Of a DNA stretch of 64,000 bases, positions 30,566 through 36,634 are shown one piece after another (the first letter of the stretch is position 1; the number at the start of each line of letters is the position of its first letter). This DNA is from Pseudomonas chlororaphis subsp. aurantiaca. Lineage in GTDB: Bacteria > Pseudomonadota > Gammaproteobacteria > Pseudomonadales > Pseudomonadaceae. Under the pieces are notes generated by a model, which made no database searches, was not told the DNA's origin, and saw only the letters and a program-made list of their open reading frames with translations. The translations under genes and the position numbers were made by a program. The DNA lies in assembly GCF_013466605.1 (NCBI RefSeq), contig NZ_CP059162.1, positions 2,728,001 to 2,792,000 on the forward strand. Direction: 5' to 3'.

Positions 30566-31105
30566 TCAGAAGCGGATATCGGCGGTTTTCACTCGCCGGA
30601 CAAAGGCGCCATCCAGGGTCGCGTTGTGGTGCTCGATGATCGCCCGGGCCGGCAGCGCCGGGGTGTCCATGCAGGTATGGGCATCCTCCACCAGCACGGC
30701 GGCGAACCCCAGGTCCAGGGCGGCGCGGCAGGTGGCGTCGATGCAGTACTGGGTCTTCATGCCGACGATCACCAGTTCATCGATCTGCTCGGCCCGCAGC
30801 TGTTCGGCCAGCCCGGTGCCGACAAAACAATTGGGGCGGGTTTTGTCCAGCCGCTGGTCGCTGGCCTCGAGCTGCAATTGCGGCAGCAGTTGCCACGGCG
30901 CGCTGCCGGCGGCGATGGGCGAACCTTGCGGGCCGGTATGGCGCACGGCGATCACCGGCGTGCCGGCCTGCCGGGCGCGGTGGATCAGTTGGTTGATGTT
31001 GTCGAGCACGCGCTGCCCCTCGAAGGGCTGCTCTGGTCCGTGAAACAGGCCGACCTGCATGTCGACGATCAGCAGGGCGGGGCGCTGGGCCTGGGGTGAC
31101 GGCAT
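30566..31105 (-). CDS. Cysteine hydrolase of the isochorismatase family
   Basis: 179-residue isochorismatase-like hydrolase (nicotinamidase fold). It has the catalytic Asp (LLIVDMQVG, residues 10-18), a Lys (RLDKTRPNCFVGTGL, about 86) and the nucleophile Cys in GMKTQYCIDATCR (about 117). Substrate unknown. Start at MPSPQAQRP, preceded by AAGGAGAAAC. The open frame runs far upstream, but that part contains a leader with a terminator and a small threonine-rich frame (see separate entries), which suggests conditional expression. Confidence 0.85.
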   Translation of the reverse strand: MPSPQAQRPALLIVDMQVGLFHGPEQPFEGQRVLDNINQLIHRARQAGTPVIAVRHTGPQGSPIAAGSAPWQLLPQLQLEASDQRLDKTRPNCFVGTGLAEQLRAEQIDELVIVGMKTQYCIDATCRAALDLGFAAVLVEDAHTCMDTPALPARAIIEHHNATLDGAFVRRVKTADIRF

Positions 31106-31143
31106 GGTGTTTCTCCTTGTGAGCCAGCTGGACGGAGAAACAA

Positions 31144-31172
31144 AAGGCCCCGTCCATTGCTGGCGGGGCCTT
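31144..31172 (-). terminator. Leader terminator directly upstream of the cysteine hydrolase gene
   Basis: On the minus strand, AAGGCCCCG pairs with CGGGGCCTT over an 11-nt loop and is followed by TTTTGTTT. It is a canonical intrinsic terminator, placed only about 38 bp upstream of the hydrolase start codon and after a short threonine-rich frame. This layout is that of an attenuator. Confidence 0.85.
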
Positions 31173-31191
31173 GGGTTCGACTGCGCTGTTG

Positions 31192-31272
31192 TCAGCTCAT
31201 GCAGCGACCACACGACCCGCCGGAAGCGGTCGTGGTGGTAGTGCGGGTGAGGTGGCGCGGGAAAGGATTCAT
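31192..31272 (-). CDS. Putative threonine-rich leader peptide
   Basis: A 26-codon frame with product MNPFPRHLTRTTTTTASGGS... ending CGRCMS. Six of seven consecutive codons (residues 9-15) are Thr apart from one Arg, and the stop lies 20 bp before a strong terminator hairpin. An RNA hairpin (ACCACGACC with GGTCGTGTGGT) overlaps the Thr codons, as expected for a pausing structure in an attenuator. No Shine-Dalgarno is seen, and the best promoter would start transcription within a few bases of the ATG, so it may be leaderless. A further in-frame ATG lies 12 bp upstream. Functional status is inference. Confidence 0.5.
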   Translation of the reverse strand: MNPFPRHLTRTTTTTASGGSCGRCMS

Positions 31273-31279
31273 GGCGCCG

Positions 31280-31309
31280 ATCATGGGGCCAGGGTTTGCG
31301 CACTGTCAA
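31280..31309 (-). promoter_or_regulatory. Sigma-70-type promoter for the leader/cysteine hydrolase gene
   Basis: On the minus strand, a perfect -35 TTGACA (31309-31304) and a -10-like CATGAT (31285-31280) are 18 bp apart. Transcription would begin near 31273, almost at the leader ATG. The -10 match is poor. Confidence 0.45.
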
Positions 31310-31603
31310 TCCGAGGGGGATGCTGGTTTGAGTGTCCGGGCCTTGGCGGTTTCCAGCCGTCGGGCGAAGGCGCCGAAGGATTGTTGCCGCTTTTTGCAGC
31401 GCTGGATCAGCGAGCCGGGTGGGTAATCGATGGGGCCTGTGAACTACGCTGAGCTTGCTTGAGTGTCTTGAGCGGGTGCGGGTCAGTGCTCCTGACCAGC
31501 AGGTCGCTTTCAGGACACGATGGGTCGCCTGGGTGCAATCGCCGGGCTATGGTGATGGGCAAGCTTCCAGGATGCCCCGGACCCGGTGCGCCAAGACACT
31601 TGG

Positions 31604-31676
31604 CCGGAGAGCAAGAATGGTGACCGAGGATCCACGCCTCCGTGACGTGGTCGGGCGCTGCAGCCGAAGACTCCGG
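31604..31676 (+). promoter_or_regulatory. Structured 5' leader of the formate dehydrogenase operon, molybdenum-cofactor riboswitch candidate
   Basis: CCGGAG at 31604-31609 pairs with CTCCGG at 31671-31676. Inside, CCACG (31632-31636) pairs with CGTGG (31646-31650) around CCTCCGTGA, and a GACC/GGTC pair competes with that stem. The element ends 50 bp before the fdsG start. It sits before an operon whose enzyme needs molybdenum cofactor, and the loop sequence CACGCCTCCG recalls the conserved part of Moco riboswitch elements as I remember them. A covariance-model search is the proper test. Confidence 0.4.
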
Positions 31677-31725
31677 ACGGGCTGCCGCTATGCGGCGGTG
31701 GCGTTCGAGATGCCGAGGTACGTTT

Positions 31726-32208
31726 ATGTCTGATGACACGCTTCACCTGCCTCTGATTCACAGCGTGTTGGAGCGCGAAAAGGACACCCCCGGTGCCTTG
31801 CTGCCGATTCTCCACGCCATTCAGGACGGTTGTGGGTACATCCCCGACGCCGCCATCCCCGAGATCGCCCATGCCCTCAACCTCAGCCTGGCTGAAGTGC
31901 ACGGCGTGATCAGCTTCTACCACGATTTCCGTACCACGCCGCCCGCGCGCCATACCCTGCGCCTGTGCCGGGCCGAGTCCTGCCAGAGCCGGGGCGCCGA
32001 ACACCTGGCTGCGCAACTGCGCGAACAACTGTTGCTGGACGACCATGGCACCACGGCCGACGGCAGTATCAACCTGCGACCGGTCTATTGCCTGGGGGCC
32101 TGCGCCTGTTCGCCGGCCCTGGAACTGGACGGCGAGCTGCACGCCCGGATCACCCCCGAGCGCCTGCGCCAGCTGGTCAGTGGCTGCCTGGAGGATGGCG
32201 CATGCTGA
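31726..32208 (+). CDS. fdsG: Formate dehydrogenase gamma subunit (NuoE-like)
   Basis: 160-residue NuoE-type electron-transfer subunit of the soluble, NAD-linked formate dehydrogenase. It carries the [2Fe-2S] ligands in the usual C-x4-C ... C-x3-C arrangement: CRAESC near residue 83 and CLGACAC near 124. It passes electrons between the FMN site of FdsB and the molybdenum subunit. Start at ATG 31726, with CGAGGT upstream; the 28 residues before it in the same frame lie in the leader region. Its last codons overlap the FdsB start. Confidence 0.92.
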   Translation: MSDDTLHLPLIHSVLEREKDTPGALLPILHAIQDGCGYIPDAAIPEIAHALNLSLAEVHGVISFYHDFRTTPPARHTLRLCRAESCQSRGAEHLAAQLREQLLLDDHGTTADGSINLRPVYCLGACACSPALELDGELHARITPERLRQLVSGCLEDGAC

Positions 32209-33761
32209 AGCTCTATATCCCCCGCGATTCGGTGGCCCGTGCCGTGGGCGCGGACAAGGTGGCCGTTGCGCTGGTGCGTGAGGCCGAACGTCGACAACTG
32301 CCGTTGGAGCTGTGCCGCACCAGCTCCCGTGGCCTCTATTGGTTGGAGCCGCTGCTGGAAGTGGACAGCGCCGACGGCCGCCTGGGTTTCGGCCCCCTGA
32401 CCCCGGAGGACGTGCCGAGCCTGCTCGACGCCCTGGCGGCAGACCCAAACAGCCACCCATTGGCCCTGGGGCCGGTGGAAGAGATCCCCTATCTGAAGAG
32501 CCAGCAGCGCCTGCTGTTCGCTCGGGCCGGCATCACCCAGCCGCTGTCCCTGGACGATTACCGCGCCCAGGGCGGTTTCCGGGGCCTGGCCCGGGCCATC
32601 CAGATGGAGGGCGCGCAGGTGGTGGCCAGCGTGCTCGACTCCGGCCTGCGCGGCCGGGGTGGCGCGGCCTTTCCGGCGGGTATCAAGTGGCGCACCGTGC
32701 GCGAAGCCGCGGGTGCCCAGAAGTACGTGGTCTGCAACGCCGATGAAGGCGACTCCGGCACCTTCGCCGACCGCATGCTGATGGAGGGCGACCCCTTCCT
32801 GCTGATCGAAGGCATGATCATCGCCGGCCTCGCCGTGGGCGCCAGCAAGGGCTATATCTACGTGCGCTCGGAATACCCGGACGCCATCGGCACCCTGAAC
32901 GAGGCCCTGCGCATCGCCCGCGAGGCCGGTTACCTGGGGGCGAACGTGGGCGGTAGCGGCCGCCCCTTCGAGCTGGACGTGCGGGTGGGGGCCGGCGCCT
33001 ACATCTGCGGTGAGGAGACGGCGCTGCTGGAGTCCCTCGAGGGCAAGCGCGGCACGGTTCGCGCCAAGCCGCCGCTGCCGGCCCTGCAGGGCCTGTTCGG
33101 CTTGCCGACGCTGGTGCACAACGTGCTGACCCTGGCCTCGGTACCGATCATCCTGGAGAAGGGCGCGCAGTTCTATCGCGACTTCGGCATGGGACGTTCC
33201 CTGGGCACCATGCCGTTCCAGCTGGCCGGCAACGTCCGCCAGGCGGGCCTGGTCGAACGTGCCTTCGGCCTGAGCCTGCGCGAACTGGTGGAAGGTTATG
33301 GCGGCGGTACCGCCAGCGGTCGACCATTGAAGGCGGCGCAAGTGGGTGGGCCGCTGGGAGCCTGGGTGCCCCCCGCGCAATTCGATACGCCGCTGGATTA
33401 CGAGGCGTTCGCCGCCATGGGCGCGATGCTCGGCCACGGTGGCGTGGTGGTCGCCGACGACAGCCTGGACATGGCCCAGATGGCCCGTTTCGCCTTGCAG
33501 TTCTGCGCCGAGGAATCCTGCGGCAAGTGCACGCCGTGCCGGATCGGTTCGACCCGCGGGGTGGAGGTGGTGGACCGCTTGATCGCCAGCACCGACGCCG
33601 CAGCCCGTGAGGAACAGGCGCTGCTGCTGCAAGACCTCTGCGACACCCTGCAATACGGCTCGCTCTGTGCCTTGGGCGGGATGACTTCCTACCCCGTCGC
33701 CAGCGCCCTCAAGCACTTTCCCGCCGACTTCGGTCTGGCGACCACGGAGGCCGACCAATGA
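32202..33761 (+). CDS. fdsB: Formate dehydrogenase beta subunit (NuoF-like diaphorase)
   Basis: 519-residue NAD-binding, FMN-containing diaphorase. An N-terminal NuoE-like thioredoxin-fold part (about 1-100) precedes the NuoF region: GLRGRGGAAFPAGIKW (FMN loop, about residue 149), VVCNADEGDSGTFADR (about 177), GAYICGEETALLESLEG (NAD site, about 265), and [4Fe-4S] ligands ESCGKCTPCRIG with a downstream SLCALGG cysteine (about 438-487). It reduces NAD+ with electrons from formate. Its ATG overlaps the FdsG stop and its own stop overlaps FdsA, so the genes are coupled. Confidence 0.93.
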   Translation: MLKLYIPRDSVARAVGADKVAVALVREAERRQLPLELCRTSSRGLYWLEPLLEVDSADGRLGFGPLTPEDVPSLLDALAADPNSHPLALGPVEEIPYLKSQQRLLFARAGITQPLSLDDYRAQGGFRGLARAIQMEGAQVVASVLDSGLRGRGGAAFPAGIKWRTVREAAGAQKYVVCNADEGDSGTFADRMLMEGDPFLLIEGMIIAGLAVGASKGYIYVRSEYPDAIGTLNEALRIAREAGYLGANVGGSGRPFELDVRVGAGAYICGEETALLESLEGKRGTVRAKPPLPALQGLFGLPTLVHNVLTLASVPIILEKGAQFYRDFGMGRSLGTMPFQLAGNVRQAGLVERAFGLSLRELVEGYGGGTASGRPLKAAQVGGPLGAWVPPAQFDTPLDYEAFAAMGAMLGHGGVVVADDSLDMAQMARFALQFCAEESCGKCTPCRIGSTRGVEVVDRLIASTDAAAREEQALLLQDLCDTLQYGSLCALGGMTSYPVASALKHFPADFGLATTEADQ

Positions 33762-36634
33762 TCAATATCTTCGACCCTACCAGTGATATCGACCTCGGCA
33801 CCCCGGCCCGCGAAAGCGCGGTGCAGGTCAGCCTGACCATCGACGGCCGCGAAATCAGCGTGGCCTCCGGCACTTCGGTGATGCGCGCCGCGGCGTTGCT
33901 CGGCACCAGCATCCCCAAACTCTGCGCCACCGACAGCCTGGAAGCCTTCGGCTCCTGCCGCATGTGCCTGGTGGAGATCGAGGGCATGCGCGGCTATCCG
34001 GCCTCCTGCACCACGCCGGTGACCGAGGGCATGGTCGTCCACACCCAGACCTCCAGGCTCGCCAGCCTGCGGCGCAACGTGATGGAGCTGTACATCTCCG
34101 ACCACCCGCTGGACTGCCTGACCTGCTCGGCCAACGGCAACTGCGAGTTGCAGACGGTGGCGGGGCAGGTGGGCCTGCGGGAAGTGCGCTACGGCTACGA
34201 GGGCGCCAACCACCTGGACGAACGGAAGGACGTCTCCAACCCCTATTTCGACTACGACCCGAGCAAGTGCATCGTCTGCAACCGCTGCGTGCGCGCCTGC
34301 GAGGAAACCCAGGGCACCTTCGCCCTGACGATCAGCGGGCGCGGCTTCGACTCCCGAGTGGCGGCGGCCGGCGGCGACAATTTCCTCGACTCCGAGTGCG
34401 TGTCCTGCGGCGCCTGCGTACAGGCCTGCCCGACCGCCACGCTGATGGAAAAGAGCGTGGTGGAGATCGGCCAGCCCGAGCGCAGCGTCATCACCACCTG
34501 CGCCTACTGTGGCGTGGGCTGCTCCTTCCGCGCCGAAATGAAAGGCGAGCAACTGGTGAGCATGGTCCCGGACAAGAACGGCCAGGCCAACCACGGCCAC
34601 TCCTGCGTCAAGGGGCGCTTTGCCTGGGGCTACGCCACTCACCCGGACCGCATCACCAAGCCGATGATCCGCAAGCACATCAGCGATCCGTGGCAAGAGG
34701 TCAGCTGGGAAGAGGCGGTCACCTACGCGGCCAGCGAGTTGCGCCGCATCCAGCTGAAATACGGACGCGACTCCATCGGCGGCATCACCTCCAGCCGTTG
34801 CACCAACGAAGAGACGTACCTGGTGCAGAAGCTGGTGCGTACCGCCTTCGGCAACAACAACGTCGACACCTGCGCACGGGTCTGCCATTCGCCCACCGGC
34901 TACGGGCTCAAGCAGACGCTGGGCGAGTCCGCCGGCACCCAGAGTTTCGACTCGGTGATGCAGGCCGACGTCATCCTGGTGATGGGCGCCAACCCTACCG
35001 ACGCGCACCCGGTATTCGGCTCCCAGCTCAAGCGCCGCCTGCGCCAGGGCGCGCGGCTGATCGTCATCGACCCGCGGCGCATCGACCTGGTGGATTCGCC
35101 CCATGCCCGTGCCGACCTGCATTTGCAGCTGCGTCCGGGCACCAACGTGGCCATGCTCAATGCATTGGCCCATGTGATCGTCACCGAGGGCCTGGTCAAC
35201 CAGCCTTTCGTCGATCGGCGCTGCGAGGCGGCGGACTTCGCCCGCTGGCGCGATTTCGTCAGCCTGGCGGAGAATTCCCCCGAGGTCCTGGGGCCGATTT
35301 GCGGGGTACCGGCCAAACAGATCCGCGACGCCGCGCGGCTGTACGCCACCGGTGGCAACGCGGCCATCTACTACGGCCTGGGCGTCACCGAGCACAGCCA
35401 GGGCAGTACCTCGGTGATGGGCATCGCCAACCTGGCGATGGTCACCGGCAACATCGGCCGCGAGGGTGTCGGGGTCAACCCGCTGCGCGGGCAGAACAAC
35501 GTCCAGGGCTCCTGCGACATGGGCTCCTTCCCCCACGAGCTGCCTGGCTATCGGCATATTTCCAACGAGGCGGTGCGCGCCCAGTTCGAACAGGCCTGGA
35601 ACGTGACCCTGCAACCCGACCCGGGCCTGCGCATTCCCAACATGTTCGAGGCGGCCCTGGACGGCACCTTCAAGGCGCTCTACTGCCAGGGCGAGGACAT
35701 CGCCCAGAGCGACCCCAACACCCAGCACGTGACCGCCGCCCTGACGGCCATGGAGTGCGTGGTGGTGCAGGACATCTTCCTCAACGAGACGGCCAAGTTC
35801 GCCCATGTGTTCCTGCCGGGCAGCTCCTTCCTCGAGAAGGACGGCACCTTTACCAACGCCGAGCGCCGCATCTCGCGGGTGCGCAAGGTCATGGAACCGC
35901 TGGCCGGCAAGGCCGACTGGGAGGCCACCATCGCCCTGGCCGACGCCCTGGGCTACAAGATGCAGTACAGCCATCCATCGGAGATCATGGATGAGATCGC
36001 GCGCCTGACGCCGACCTTCCACCGCGTCAGCTACGCCGAGCTGGACCGTCACGGCAGCCTGCAATGGCCATGCAACGATGCCGCGCCGGACGGCACGCCG
36101 ACCATGCACATCGATGAGTTCGTGCGCGGCAAGGGCCGCTTCATGCTCACCGGCTACGTGCCCACCGAGGAGAAGGTCAACAGCCGCTACCCGTTGCTGC
36201 TGACCACCGGGCGCATCCTCAGCCAGTACAACGTCGGCGCCCAGACCCGGCGCACCGACAACGTGGCCTGGCACGAGGAGGACCGCCTGGAAATCCACCC
36301 GGCCGACGCCGAGAACCGCGGCATCGTCGATGGCGACTGGGTCGGCATCGGCAGCCGCGCCGGGCAAACGGTGCTGCGGGCCAAGGTCAGCGAGCGGGTG
36401 GCGCCGGGGGTGGTCTACACCACCTTCCACTTCCCGGAATCGGGCGCCAACGTGATCACCACCGACAACTCCGACTGGGCCACCAACTGCCCGGAATACA
36501 AGGTGACGGCGGTGGAGGTGGTGCGGGTCAACCAGCCTTCCGAATGGCAGAAACGCTATCAGGCGTTCAGCGATGAACAGGGGCGCCTGCTGCGGGAACG
36601 TCGTCACGCCGAGAAAGCCGAGGTGCGCCGATGA
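33758..36634 (+). CDS. fdsA: Formate dehydrogenase alpha subunit (molybdopterin catalytic subunit)
   Basis: 958-residue catalytic subunit. From the N-terminus: a [2Fe-2S] ferredoxin domain (FGSCRMCLVEIEG), a His/Cys [4Fe-4S] site (DHPLDCLTCSANGNCELQ), two further [4Fe-4S] motifs (CIVCNRCVRACEE, CVSCGACVQACPT) and the molybdopterin-domain [4Fe-4S] motif CAYCGVGC. The catalytic residue is Cys376 followed by His377 (ARVCHSPT), so this is the cysteine, not the selenocysteine, form. It binds bis-MGD and oxidises formate to CO2. ATG overlaps the FdsB stop. No FdhD/FdsC-type accessory gene is inside the operon here; it must be elsewhere. Confidence 0.95.
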   Translation: MINIFDPTSDIDLGTPARESAVQVSLTIDGREISVASGTSVMRAAALLGTSIPKLCATDSLEAFGSCRMCLVEIEGMRGYPASCTTPVTEGMVVHTQTSRLASLRRNVMELYISDHPLDCLTCSANGNCELQTVAGQVGLREVRYGYEGANHLDERKDVSNPYFDYDPSKCIVCNRCVRACEETQGTFALTISGRGFDSRVAAAGGDNFLDSECVSCGACVQACPTATLMEKSVVEIGQPERSVITTCAYCGVGCSFRAEMKGEQLVSMVPDKNGQANHGHSCVKGRFAWGYATHPDRITKPMIRKHISDPWQEVSWEEAVTYAASELRRIQLKYGRDSIGGITSSRCTNEETYLVQKLVRTAFGNNNVDTCARVCHSPTGYGLKQTLGESAGTQSFDSVMQADVILVMGANPTDAHPVFGSQLKRRLRQGARLIVIDPRRIDLVDSPHARADLHLQLRPGTNVAMLNALAHVIVTEGLVNQPFVDRRCEAADFARWRDFVSLAENSPEVLGPICGVPAKQIRDAARLYATGGNAAIYYGLGVTEHSQGSTSVMGIANLAMVTGNIGREGVGVNPLRGQNNVQGSCDMGSFPHELPGYRHISNEAVRAQFEQAWNVTLQPDPGLRIPNMFEAALDGTFKALYCQGEDIAQSDPNTQHVTAALTAMECVVVQDIFLNETAKFAHVFLPGSSFLEKDGTFTNAERRISRVRKVMEPLAGKADWEATIALADALGYKMQYSHPSEIMDEIARLTPTFHRVSYAELDRHGSLQWPCNDAAPDGTPTMHIDEFVRGKGRFMLTGYVPTEEKVNSRYPLLLTTGRILSQYNVGAQTRRTDNVAWHEEDRLEIHPADAENRGIVDGDWVGIGSRAGQTVLRAKVSERVAPGVVYTTFHFPESGANVITTDNSDWATNCPEYKVTAVEVVRVNQPSEWQKRYQAFSDEQGRLLRERRHAEKAEVRR

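Follow-up and report, generated by a model that had tools for sequence, protein, structure and literature searches.

Classical attenuators tune amino acid synthesis. At the locus considered here, on the minus strand of a 64,000-nucleotide stretch of Pseudomonas chlororaphis DNA (hereafter the window), what looks like the same kind of switch, with a run of threonine codons in its leader, stands ahead of a gene for a cysteine hydrolase, which raises the question of what is being sensed and for what purpose. An earlier note on this DNA had described a promoter pair, a 26-codon frame rich in Thr, a hairpin over the Thr codons, and a terminator, and all of these lie in the raw sequence where it had placed them. 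From the comparisons reported below, the element is a real, conserved, and probably functional Thr attenuator. Its mechanism is a variant on one known in kind, its cargo is new, and it also has a further RNA helix and a frame that is likely leaderless.

Parts of the threonine leader

The promoter consists of a −35 hexamer TTGACA (31304..31309, minus strand, as for all features of the element) and a −10 hexamer CATGAT (31280..31285), separated by an 18-nt spacer. This pair, visible in the raw sequence, was also the 1 site returned by a promoter scan of 2.5 kb, where shuffled sequences gave a mean of 0.3. The −10 hexamer ends 7 nt 5' of the leader ATG at 31272, from which a frame of 26 codons plus stop (MNPFPRHLTRTTTTTASGGSCGRCMS, 31192..31272, stop at 31194-31192) is predicted to be read as a leaderless frame, without a Shine-Dalgarno sequence. 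A second in-frame ATG upstream, at 31284, falls within the −10 hexamer, and 31272 is therefore the likely leader start. The sensing run comprises five consecutive Thr codons (ACT ACC ACC ACG ACC, 31228..31242), whose 3' part is also arm 1 of hairpin 1:2.

Four alternative pairings follow. In the folds, segment 2 (GGCGGGTCGTGTGGT, 31207..31221) pairs either with the Thr codons (1:2) or, through its GGCGGG, with the CCCGCC of the 5' arm of the terminator (the 2:3 antiterminator). The intrinsic terminator 3:4 with its T tract (AAGGCCCCGCCAGCAATGGACGGGGCCTTTTGTTT, 31138..31172), evident in both sequence and folds, has the stem AAGGCCCCG/CGGGGCCTT followed by TTTTGTTT (31172-31138). Beyond the T tract, segment 5 (CTCCGTCCAGCTGGC, 31123..31137) is complementary to the terminator loop and 3' arm (helix 4:5). 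The 141-nt leader folds at −57.3 kcal/mol, compared with a shuffled mean of −43.1 (z −4.2). A pattern scan for terminators over 2.5 kb listed none (shuffled mean 1.5), because the uninterrupted stem leaves a loop of 11 and the pattern allows at most 8. Rfam gave no match at gathering level in the window or in five related loci, and none at E ≤ 1 for 30900-31500; membership of a known RNA family was rejected, since its leader families (Thr_leader and others) remained below threshold.

The structural gene (30566..31105, ATG at 31105) is preceded by the Shine-Dalgarno sequence AAGGAG (31113..31118) and encodes a 179-aa cysteine hydrolase of the isochorismatase family (Pfam PF00857, 3.5e-39; 135.1 bits against a cut-off of 27). 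D15, K88, and C121, numbered by the window protein as the first in the alignment, are invariant in 74 of 74 hydrolases, and we take them to be the Asp-Lys-Cys triad of isochorismatase-like hydrolases. The closest named relatives include cysteine hydrolases of Pseudomonas chlororaphis. Four NCBIfam equivalogs were matched, all far below their cut-offs, and at these scores the protein falls in none of the curated enzyme families, among them nicotinamidase, RutB, biuret hydrolase, and the YecD-like PRK11440.

Conservation in Pseudomonas and a methionine counterpart

A BLAST search with the leader-terminator DNA (261 nt) found relatives in 80 of 199 Pseudomonas genomes, the window's own included, and some of these genomes have two or three matching places. 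The Thr run, the terminator, and the spacing of the promoter are kept among the relatives, and a chance origin was rejected. A covariance model built from 46 sequences (R1) matched 126 of the 199 genomes at E ≤ 0.01, of which the weak matches that were inspected (E about 6e-5 and worse) are not convincing members.

Both a leader and a gene could be assigned at 102 Pseudomonas loci, the window among them, and these comprise 75 Thr leaders and 27 Met leaders. Left out were L052, L063, L074, and L076, at which no leader was found, and L071 and L084, at which no gene was found; L091-L100 (weak or own) stood outside the analysis, and L113, L115, L118, L120, L123, and L124-L134 were left out of the leader alignment as duplicate, degenerate, or weak. 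Hydrolase genes follow 74 of the 75 Thr leaders and an MFS transporter gene follows the other one, and all 27 Met leaders precede a GNAT acetyltransferase gene.

Counted back from a conserved Ala, Thr occupies positions −4, −3, −2, and −1 in 68, 69, 74, and 74 of 74 leaders (L119 is absent from this codon table), and the longest Thr run ranges from 2 to 9 across all 75. All four Thr codons are used at −4; position −2 is mostly ACG (66) and −1 mostly ACC (71), a dominance of one codon that is expected there because the same bases also pair. At the level of sequence, then, the Thr codons vary synonymously and behave as sensors. Alignment with other Pseudomonas bears out the earlier reading of a Thr-type attenuator before a non-biosynthetic hydrolase, since Thr is kept through synonymous codon change and the hairpins and terminator persist in the relatives.

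The suggestion that cysteine supply might be a further signal, drawn from the CGRCMS end of the window peptide, did not survive this comparison. That end is not kept, Cys being found at +5 in 27 of 65 leaders and at +8 in 27 of 62, and control by cysteine was rejected on the lack of conserved Cys codons and on the 24 of 75 Thr leaders that contain no Cys at all. Beyond the Thr run the peptides differ in sequence, length, and stop position, and together with the leaders devoid of Cys this speaks against a role for Cys or for the peptide itself.

The Met leaders share a consensus of two paired Met codons followed by a spacer and then Met-Thr-Ala-x-Gly-Gly, with Met at −7, −6, and −2 in 25, 25, and 27 of 27. 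Thr-Ala (ACC GCY in most) is kept before GGCGGG in both the Thr and the Met class, and this shared ACC GCY can be explained by base pairing with segment 2.

A probably leaderless sensing frame

At 65 of 75 Thr loci and all 27 Met loci of Pseudomonas, the end of the best −10-like hexamer lies 6 or 7 nt 5' of the leader ATG, and TTGACA is present at 32 of 75 and 17 of 27, with close variants in most of the others. Under a strict definition (at least 4 of 6 bases, ending 5-8 nt 5' of the ATG), a −10 hexamer is found at 38 of 75 Thr loci (shuffled mean 2.1, maximum 7) and at 7 of 27 Met loci (shuffled mean 1.7, maximum 5), and the Met promoters are therefore weak by consensus. A Shine-Dalgarno-like word before the leader ATG occurs at only 4 of 75 Thr and 1 of 27 Met loci; before the structural genes of the 102 Pseudomonas loci a Shine-Dalgarno sequence is true by construction, as the locus script required it. 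The picture is the same in Burkholderiaceae: of 65 distinct upstream stretches, 63 have TTGA[CT], which in 46 lies 35-37 nt 5' of the leader ATG, and none has a Shine-Dalgarno-like word before that ATG. Judged by the spacing from promoter to ATG across loci, a transcription start adjoining the leader ATG, which had been predicted for the window, is probably a conserved property, and the leader frame is probably leaderless, with an mRNA that begins at or next to its ATG.

Alternative structures and a helix beyond the terminator

The states of a ribosome stalled on the codon run or arrived at the stop codon were modeled by masking the RNA as far as the ribosome's leading edge before folding. In the stalled state, segment 3 pairs with segment 2 at 62 of 75 Thr and 25 of 27 Met loci, this pairing being absent at 13 of the Thr loci. 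In the stop state, for which the mask covers all upstream RNA, 2:3 pairing is seen at 0 of 75 Thr and 0 of 27 Met loci, and the terminator forms at 73 of 75 and 27 of 27. In these models, antiterminator and terminator exclude each other and are placed relative to the sensing codons. The mask of the stop state also covers the GGCGGG, although in the window this starts about 27 nt 5' of the stop codon and would have to be held by hairpin 1:2. With the ribosome stalled and segment 4 not yet made, the window RNA folds at −29.8 kcal/mol, with segment 3 held by segment 2. The fold of lowest energy has the terminator both in the leader free of ribosomes and, once segment 4 has been made, in the stalled window, and antitermination must therefore be kinetic, decided during transcription.

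Judged by complementarity, helix 4:5 is an additional element beyond the 1:2/2:3/3:4 scheme; to our knowledge, such a post-terminator helix is not usually part of attenuation models. At the Thr loci the 4:5 duplex has a mean of −20.7 kcal/mol with its own partners; partners taken from other Thr loci give −17.6 (own better in 61 of 75) and shuffled partners −12.0 (own better in 74 of 75), and at the Met loci the corresponding values are −16.6, −15.3, and −9.2 kcal/mol (own better in 19 of 27 and 27 of 27), in a comparison whose loci are related, hence not independent trials, and include one wrongly cut locus (L027).

Genes behind the leader in Burkholderiaceae and other groups

Among 274 genomes of Gammaproteobacteria, the best R1 match outside the window's own genome was at 1.4e-4, a miss due to a thin sample of the class or to the first filter; a sequence pattern and a later R1 search found the element in Burkholderiaceae and some other groups. 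Of 299 Burkholderiaceae genomes, 72 had an R1 match at E ≤ 1e-4, and 70 of roughly 100 places were taken for a count of cargo. Thr leaders stand before 25 hydrolase, 21 short second ThrRS, and 2 MFS genes (3 of the hydrolases, at L282, L284, and L317, and 2 of the ThrRS, at L319 and L324, being assigned by short-stretch matches only), and 3 more have no recognised gene behind them. Met leaders stand before 8 GNAT genes. No leader was found at 5 loci (1 with a ThrRS, 2 with hydrolase fragments, and 2 with nothing), and at 6 loci another leader precedes a different protein.

Across the 102 Pseudomonas and 70 Burkholderiaceae loci there is no crossover between codon type and gene type, that is, no Thr leader before a GNAT gene and no Met leader before any other gene. 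No threonine synthesis gene lies behind the element among the classified loci, and control of such genes was rejected.

A pattern scan of named genomes returned at least 119 stretches, at least 60 of them with leader and terminator; most of the remaining stretches have no leader frame. Among the matches listed, hydrolase N-termini follow the element in Pseudomonas, Paraburkholderia, Cupriavidus, Rugamonas, Silvimonas, and Andreprevotia, a ThrRS follows it in Burkholderia seminalis, B. arboris, a Rhodospirillales MAG, and a Myxococcales MAG (where it is cut at the locus end and corresponds to a 424-aa open frame in the genome), and an MFS transporter follows it in B. puraquae and Burkholderia sp. 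D-99. The ThrRS of B. seminalis, B. arboris, and the Rhodospirillales MAG score 441.8, 431.9, and 455 bits against TIGR00418 (cut-off 383.65) and consist of the catalytic and anticodon domains only, PDB relatives having been used for the domain content of the B. arboris protein. Both Burkholderia genomes also carry a full-length ThrRS, 55% identical to the short one.

In the three MFS genes compared, the first ~20 codons are a remnant of that ThrRS gene, with 38-47 of 60 nt identical where no control window exceeded 37, so that the transporter has come to stand where the synthetase stood, behind one and the same switch. In NCBIfam, the transporters come nearest to the efflux families MdtH and YdeE, far below cut-offs. 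Relatives of the MFS proteins were not matched on plasmids at 1e-40. Relatives of the hydrolase occur on 55 plasmid records, and of six that were examined, five have a Thr-rich frame and the one from Aeromonas has none.

ThrRS is inhibited by both obafluorin and borrelidin, and the producer of obafluorin has a second ThrRS, ObaO, according to PMC10619133 and PMC11252418; the latter attributes obafluorin resistance to a Gly463Ser change in ObaO. All 22 short ThrRS proteins have the motif AFYGPK, with Gly next to the reactive Tyr, so they do not have this change, the position having been assigned by motif with the E. coli sequence outside the alignment. A resistance change of the ObaO type was rejected for these 22 on this basis. 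A second full-length ThrRS, with an open frame of 642-725 aa, is present in 5 of 398 Pseudomonas genomes (L379-L383). No Thr run was found in up to 450 nt upstream of these five genes, some of whose starts are uncertain, and an attenuator before them was rejected; these genes may be part of some other gene group, for instance a biosynthetic cluster.

Proposed mechanism and purpose

Comparison of the sequences shows the parts of the switch, that they are conserved, that the Thr codons change synonymously, and that the kind of gene goes with the kind of sensing codon. With these in hand we are largely confident that the element works by ribosome-mediated transcription attenuation and measures charged tRNA-Thr ahead of the hydrolase. 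The regulatory dynamics that we infer would begin with transcription at or next to the leader AUG and the loading of a ribosome on the leaderless frame. When Thr-tRNA is plentiful, the ribosome would get to the stop codon, hairpin 1:2 could re-form behind it, and segment 3 would be left free, so that terminator 3:4 would form and transcription would end near 31140. When charging of tRNA-Thr fails, the ribosome would halt on the Thr run and the GGCGGG of segment 2 would capture the CCCGCC of segment 3; no terminator would then form, segment 4 could pair with segment 5, and the hydrolase would be made.

The physiological purpose that we infer as most likely is defence against ThrRS inhibitors or threonine antimetabolites. 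A hydrolase, an MFS transporter, and a spare ThrRS all stand behind the same switch, whose Met twin precedes a GNAT acetyltransferase gene, and the cell would thus probably be responding to inhibition of the cognate synthetase or to an amino acid antimetabolite, not to simple hunger; the MFS genes with their ThrRS remnant and the many genomic neighborhoods support defence as well. The known inhibitors of ThrRS, the second ThrRS of the obafluorin producer, and the streptothricin hydrolase SttH agree with this purpose, and the AFYGPK motif of the short ThrRS proteins counts against it. In a broader and more tentative version, which we would not yet favor over its negation, the element would be a mobile alarm module, in which leaderless codon-run attenuators sense one blocked tRNA-charging reaction and switch on a counter-gene, sensor codons and cargo being interchangeable. 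The cargo would then be a detoxifying, effluxing, or target-replacing gene directed against the natural product that causes the block. Plain threonine shortage could serve as the signal instead, with a cargo that serves threonine economy, the hydrolase freeing a source of threonine or redirecting metabolism and the ThrRS scavenging. The mechanism cannot tell starvation from inhibition, a ThrRS under Thr control would be a plausible feedback loop comparable to E. coli pheST, and the short ThrRS is without the known resistance change. Yet threonine synthesis genes are missing from the classified loci, the transporters resemble, at a distance, efflux families, and a GNAT under Met control is unfit for methionine supply. 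We regard the shortage explanation as possible but rather unlikely.

Two further explanations would move the signal or the product away from tRNA charging in cis. The leader might sense ribosome-targeting antibiotics that stall translation at Thr/Ala contexts, in the manner of erm-type leaders and toiL, and sequence-specific stalling on uORFs is indeed known (PMC12121999). The Thr-Ala common to both leader classes would suit such stalling, but the pairing of ACC GCY with GGCGGG can account for its conservation at the RNA level, where Met codons take the place of the Thr run the gene behind the leader changes as well, and the peptide around the run is variable, all of which makes antibiotic-induced stalling improbable. 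The terminated transcript (~135 nt) could also be a regulatory RNA, or the source of a peptide, that acts elsewhere, as do rnTrpL and peTrpL; the leaderless attenuator transcript of Sinorhizobium meliloti has such roles (PMC7298713). Here, however, the peptide beyond the Thr run is not conserved and differs in length and stop position, and segments 2, 3, and 4 hold their register ahead of the gene, and we give a role in trans very little credence. Sensing of tRNA-Thr charging in cis, with defence as its most likely purpose, is the interpretation that we retain.

Relation to known attenuators and resistance proteins

The leader of the E. coli thr operon, thrL, has a Thr-rich peptide, alternative 1:2/2:3/3:4 pairings, and an intrinsic terminator, and the window element likewise places a Thr-rich leader, these alternatives, and a terminator before a structural gene. 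It differs from thrL in its cargo, which is a hydrolase, a short ThrRS, an MFS transporter, or, in the Met version, a GNAT acetyltransferase and not biosynthesis, and in a leader that seldom has a Shine-Dalgarno sequence, is predicted to adjoin the transcription start, and has the extra 4:5 helix. In E. coli pheST, a leader peptide puts a synthetase under the control of its own amino acid; the ThrRS loci are alike in this, except that the synthetase is a second, short ThrRS beside a full-length one and that the switch is common to non-synthetase genes. A leaderless attenuator leader is described for S. meliloti trpL, whose transcript, according to PMC7298713, starts at the ATG of the sensing frame with codon-specific attenuation as predicted here, and the mycobacterial polycysteine leaderless ORFs are reported to work by the same leaderless, codon-specific attenuation; both concern other amino acids and other genes.

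Resistance proteins offer looser parallels. ObaO is a second ThrRS that provides immunity, and the short ThrRS of the element is without its resistance change. SttH is an isochorismatase-like hydrolase that inactivates streptothricin, with a native role that is doubted (PMC11702664), and its likeness to the window hydrolase is by family name alone. The accessible parts of PMC10619133, PMC11252418, and PMC11702664 do not mention an attenuator for ObaO or SttH. In the full-text literature searched by title or start of abstract, which leaves most subscription journals uncovered, no published description of the element was found, and PMC2965389 does not name it in the part available.

The physics of the classical attenuators thus seems to be reused as a specific stress detector ahead of orphan enzymes. 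The codon run names the blocked amino acid and in this way hints at what the orphan hydrolase and acetyltransferase likely respond to, and their function becomes testable with synthetase inhibitors. The leader is also a handle for mining genomes for responses to inhibitors of aminoacyl-tRNA synthetases; if the element is an alarm module, the compounds that induce each leader would reveal such inhibitors.

Genomic setting and related leaders

The 75 Thr units of Pseudomonas lie among 49 upstream and 41 downstream neighbor families. The largest downstream family accounts for 23 of the 75 loci, the window among them, and part of the set is therefore syntenic. In the window, a formate dehydrogenase-like gene set, recognized by eye from translations, occupies 31642-36634 on the plus strand, divergent from the switch, with ~400 nt free of any assigned feature between its first gene and the switch promoter. 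Possibly degenerate copies of the element were seen at L071, L084, L131, L287, L313, L314, L318, L325, L328, and L332; in these the leader or terminator is present and the gene is missing, broken, or unrecognised, consistent with gain and loss.

In Erwiniaceae (Duffyella and Pantoea), a Thr-rich leader before the hydrolase is kept. A T tract was not seen in the four Erwiniaceae hairpins at L384, L386, L387, and L388, and control in this family may act at translation or through another kind of termination.

In Burkholderiaceae, R1 also matches leaders of about 28 codons (e.g., MLTHTSIAVAINHPKRAITGWPLGVCAR), with a TTGACA promoter and a terminator, before a small protein (L323, L336, L340, L341, L342, and L343). 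These leaders have no obvious run of a single residue, so another signal may be read by them, and the small protein behind them presumably resembles DUF2917.
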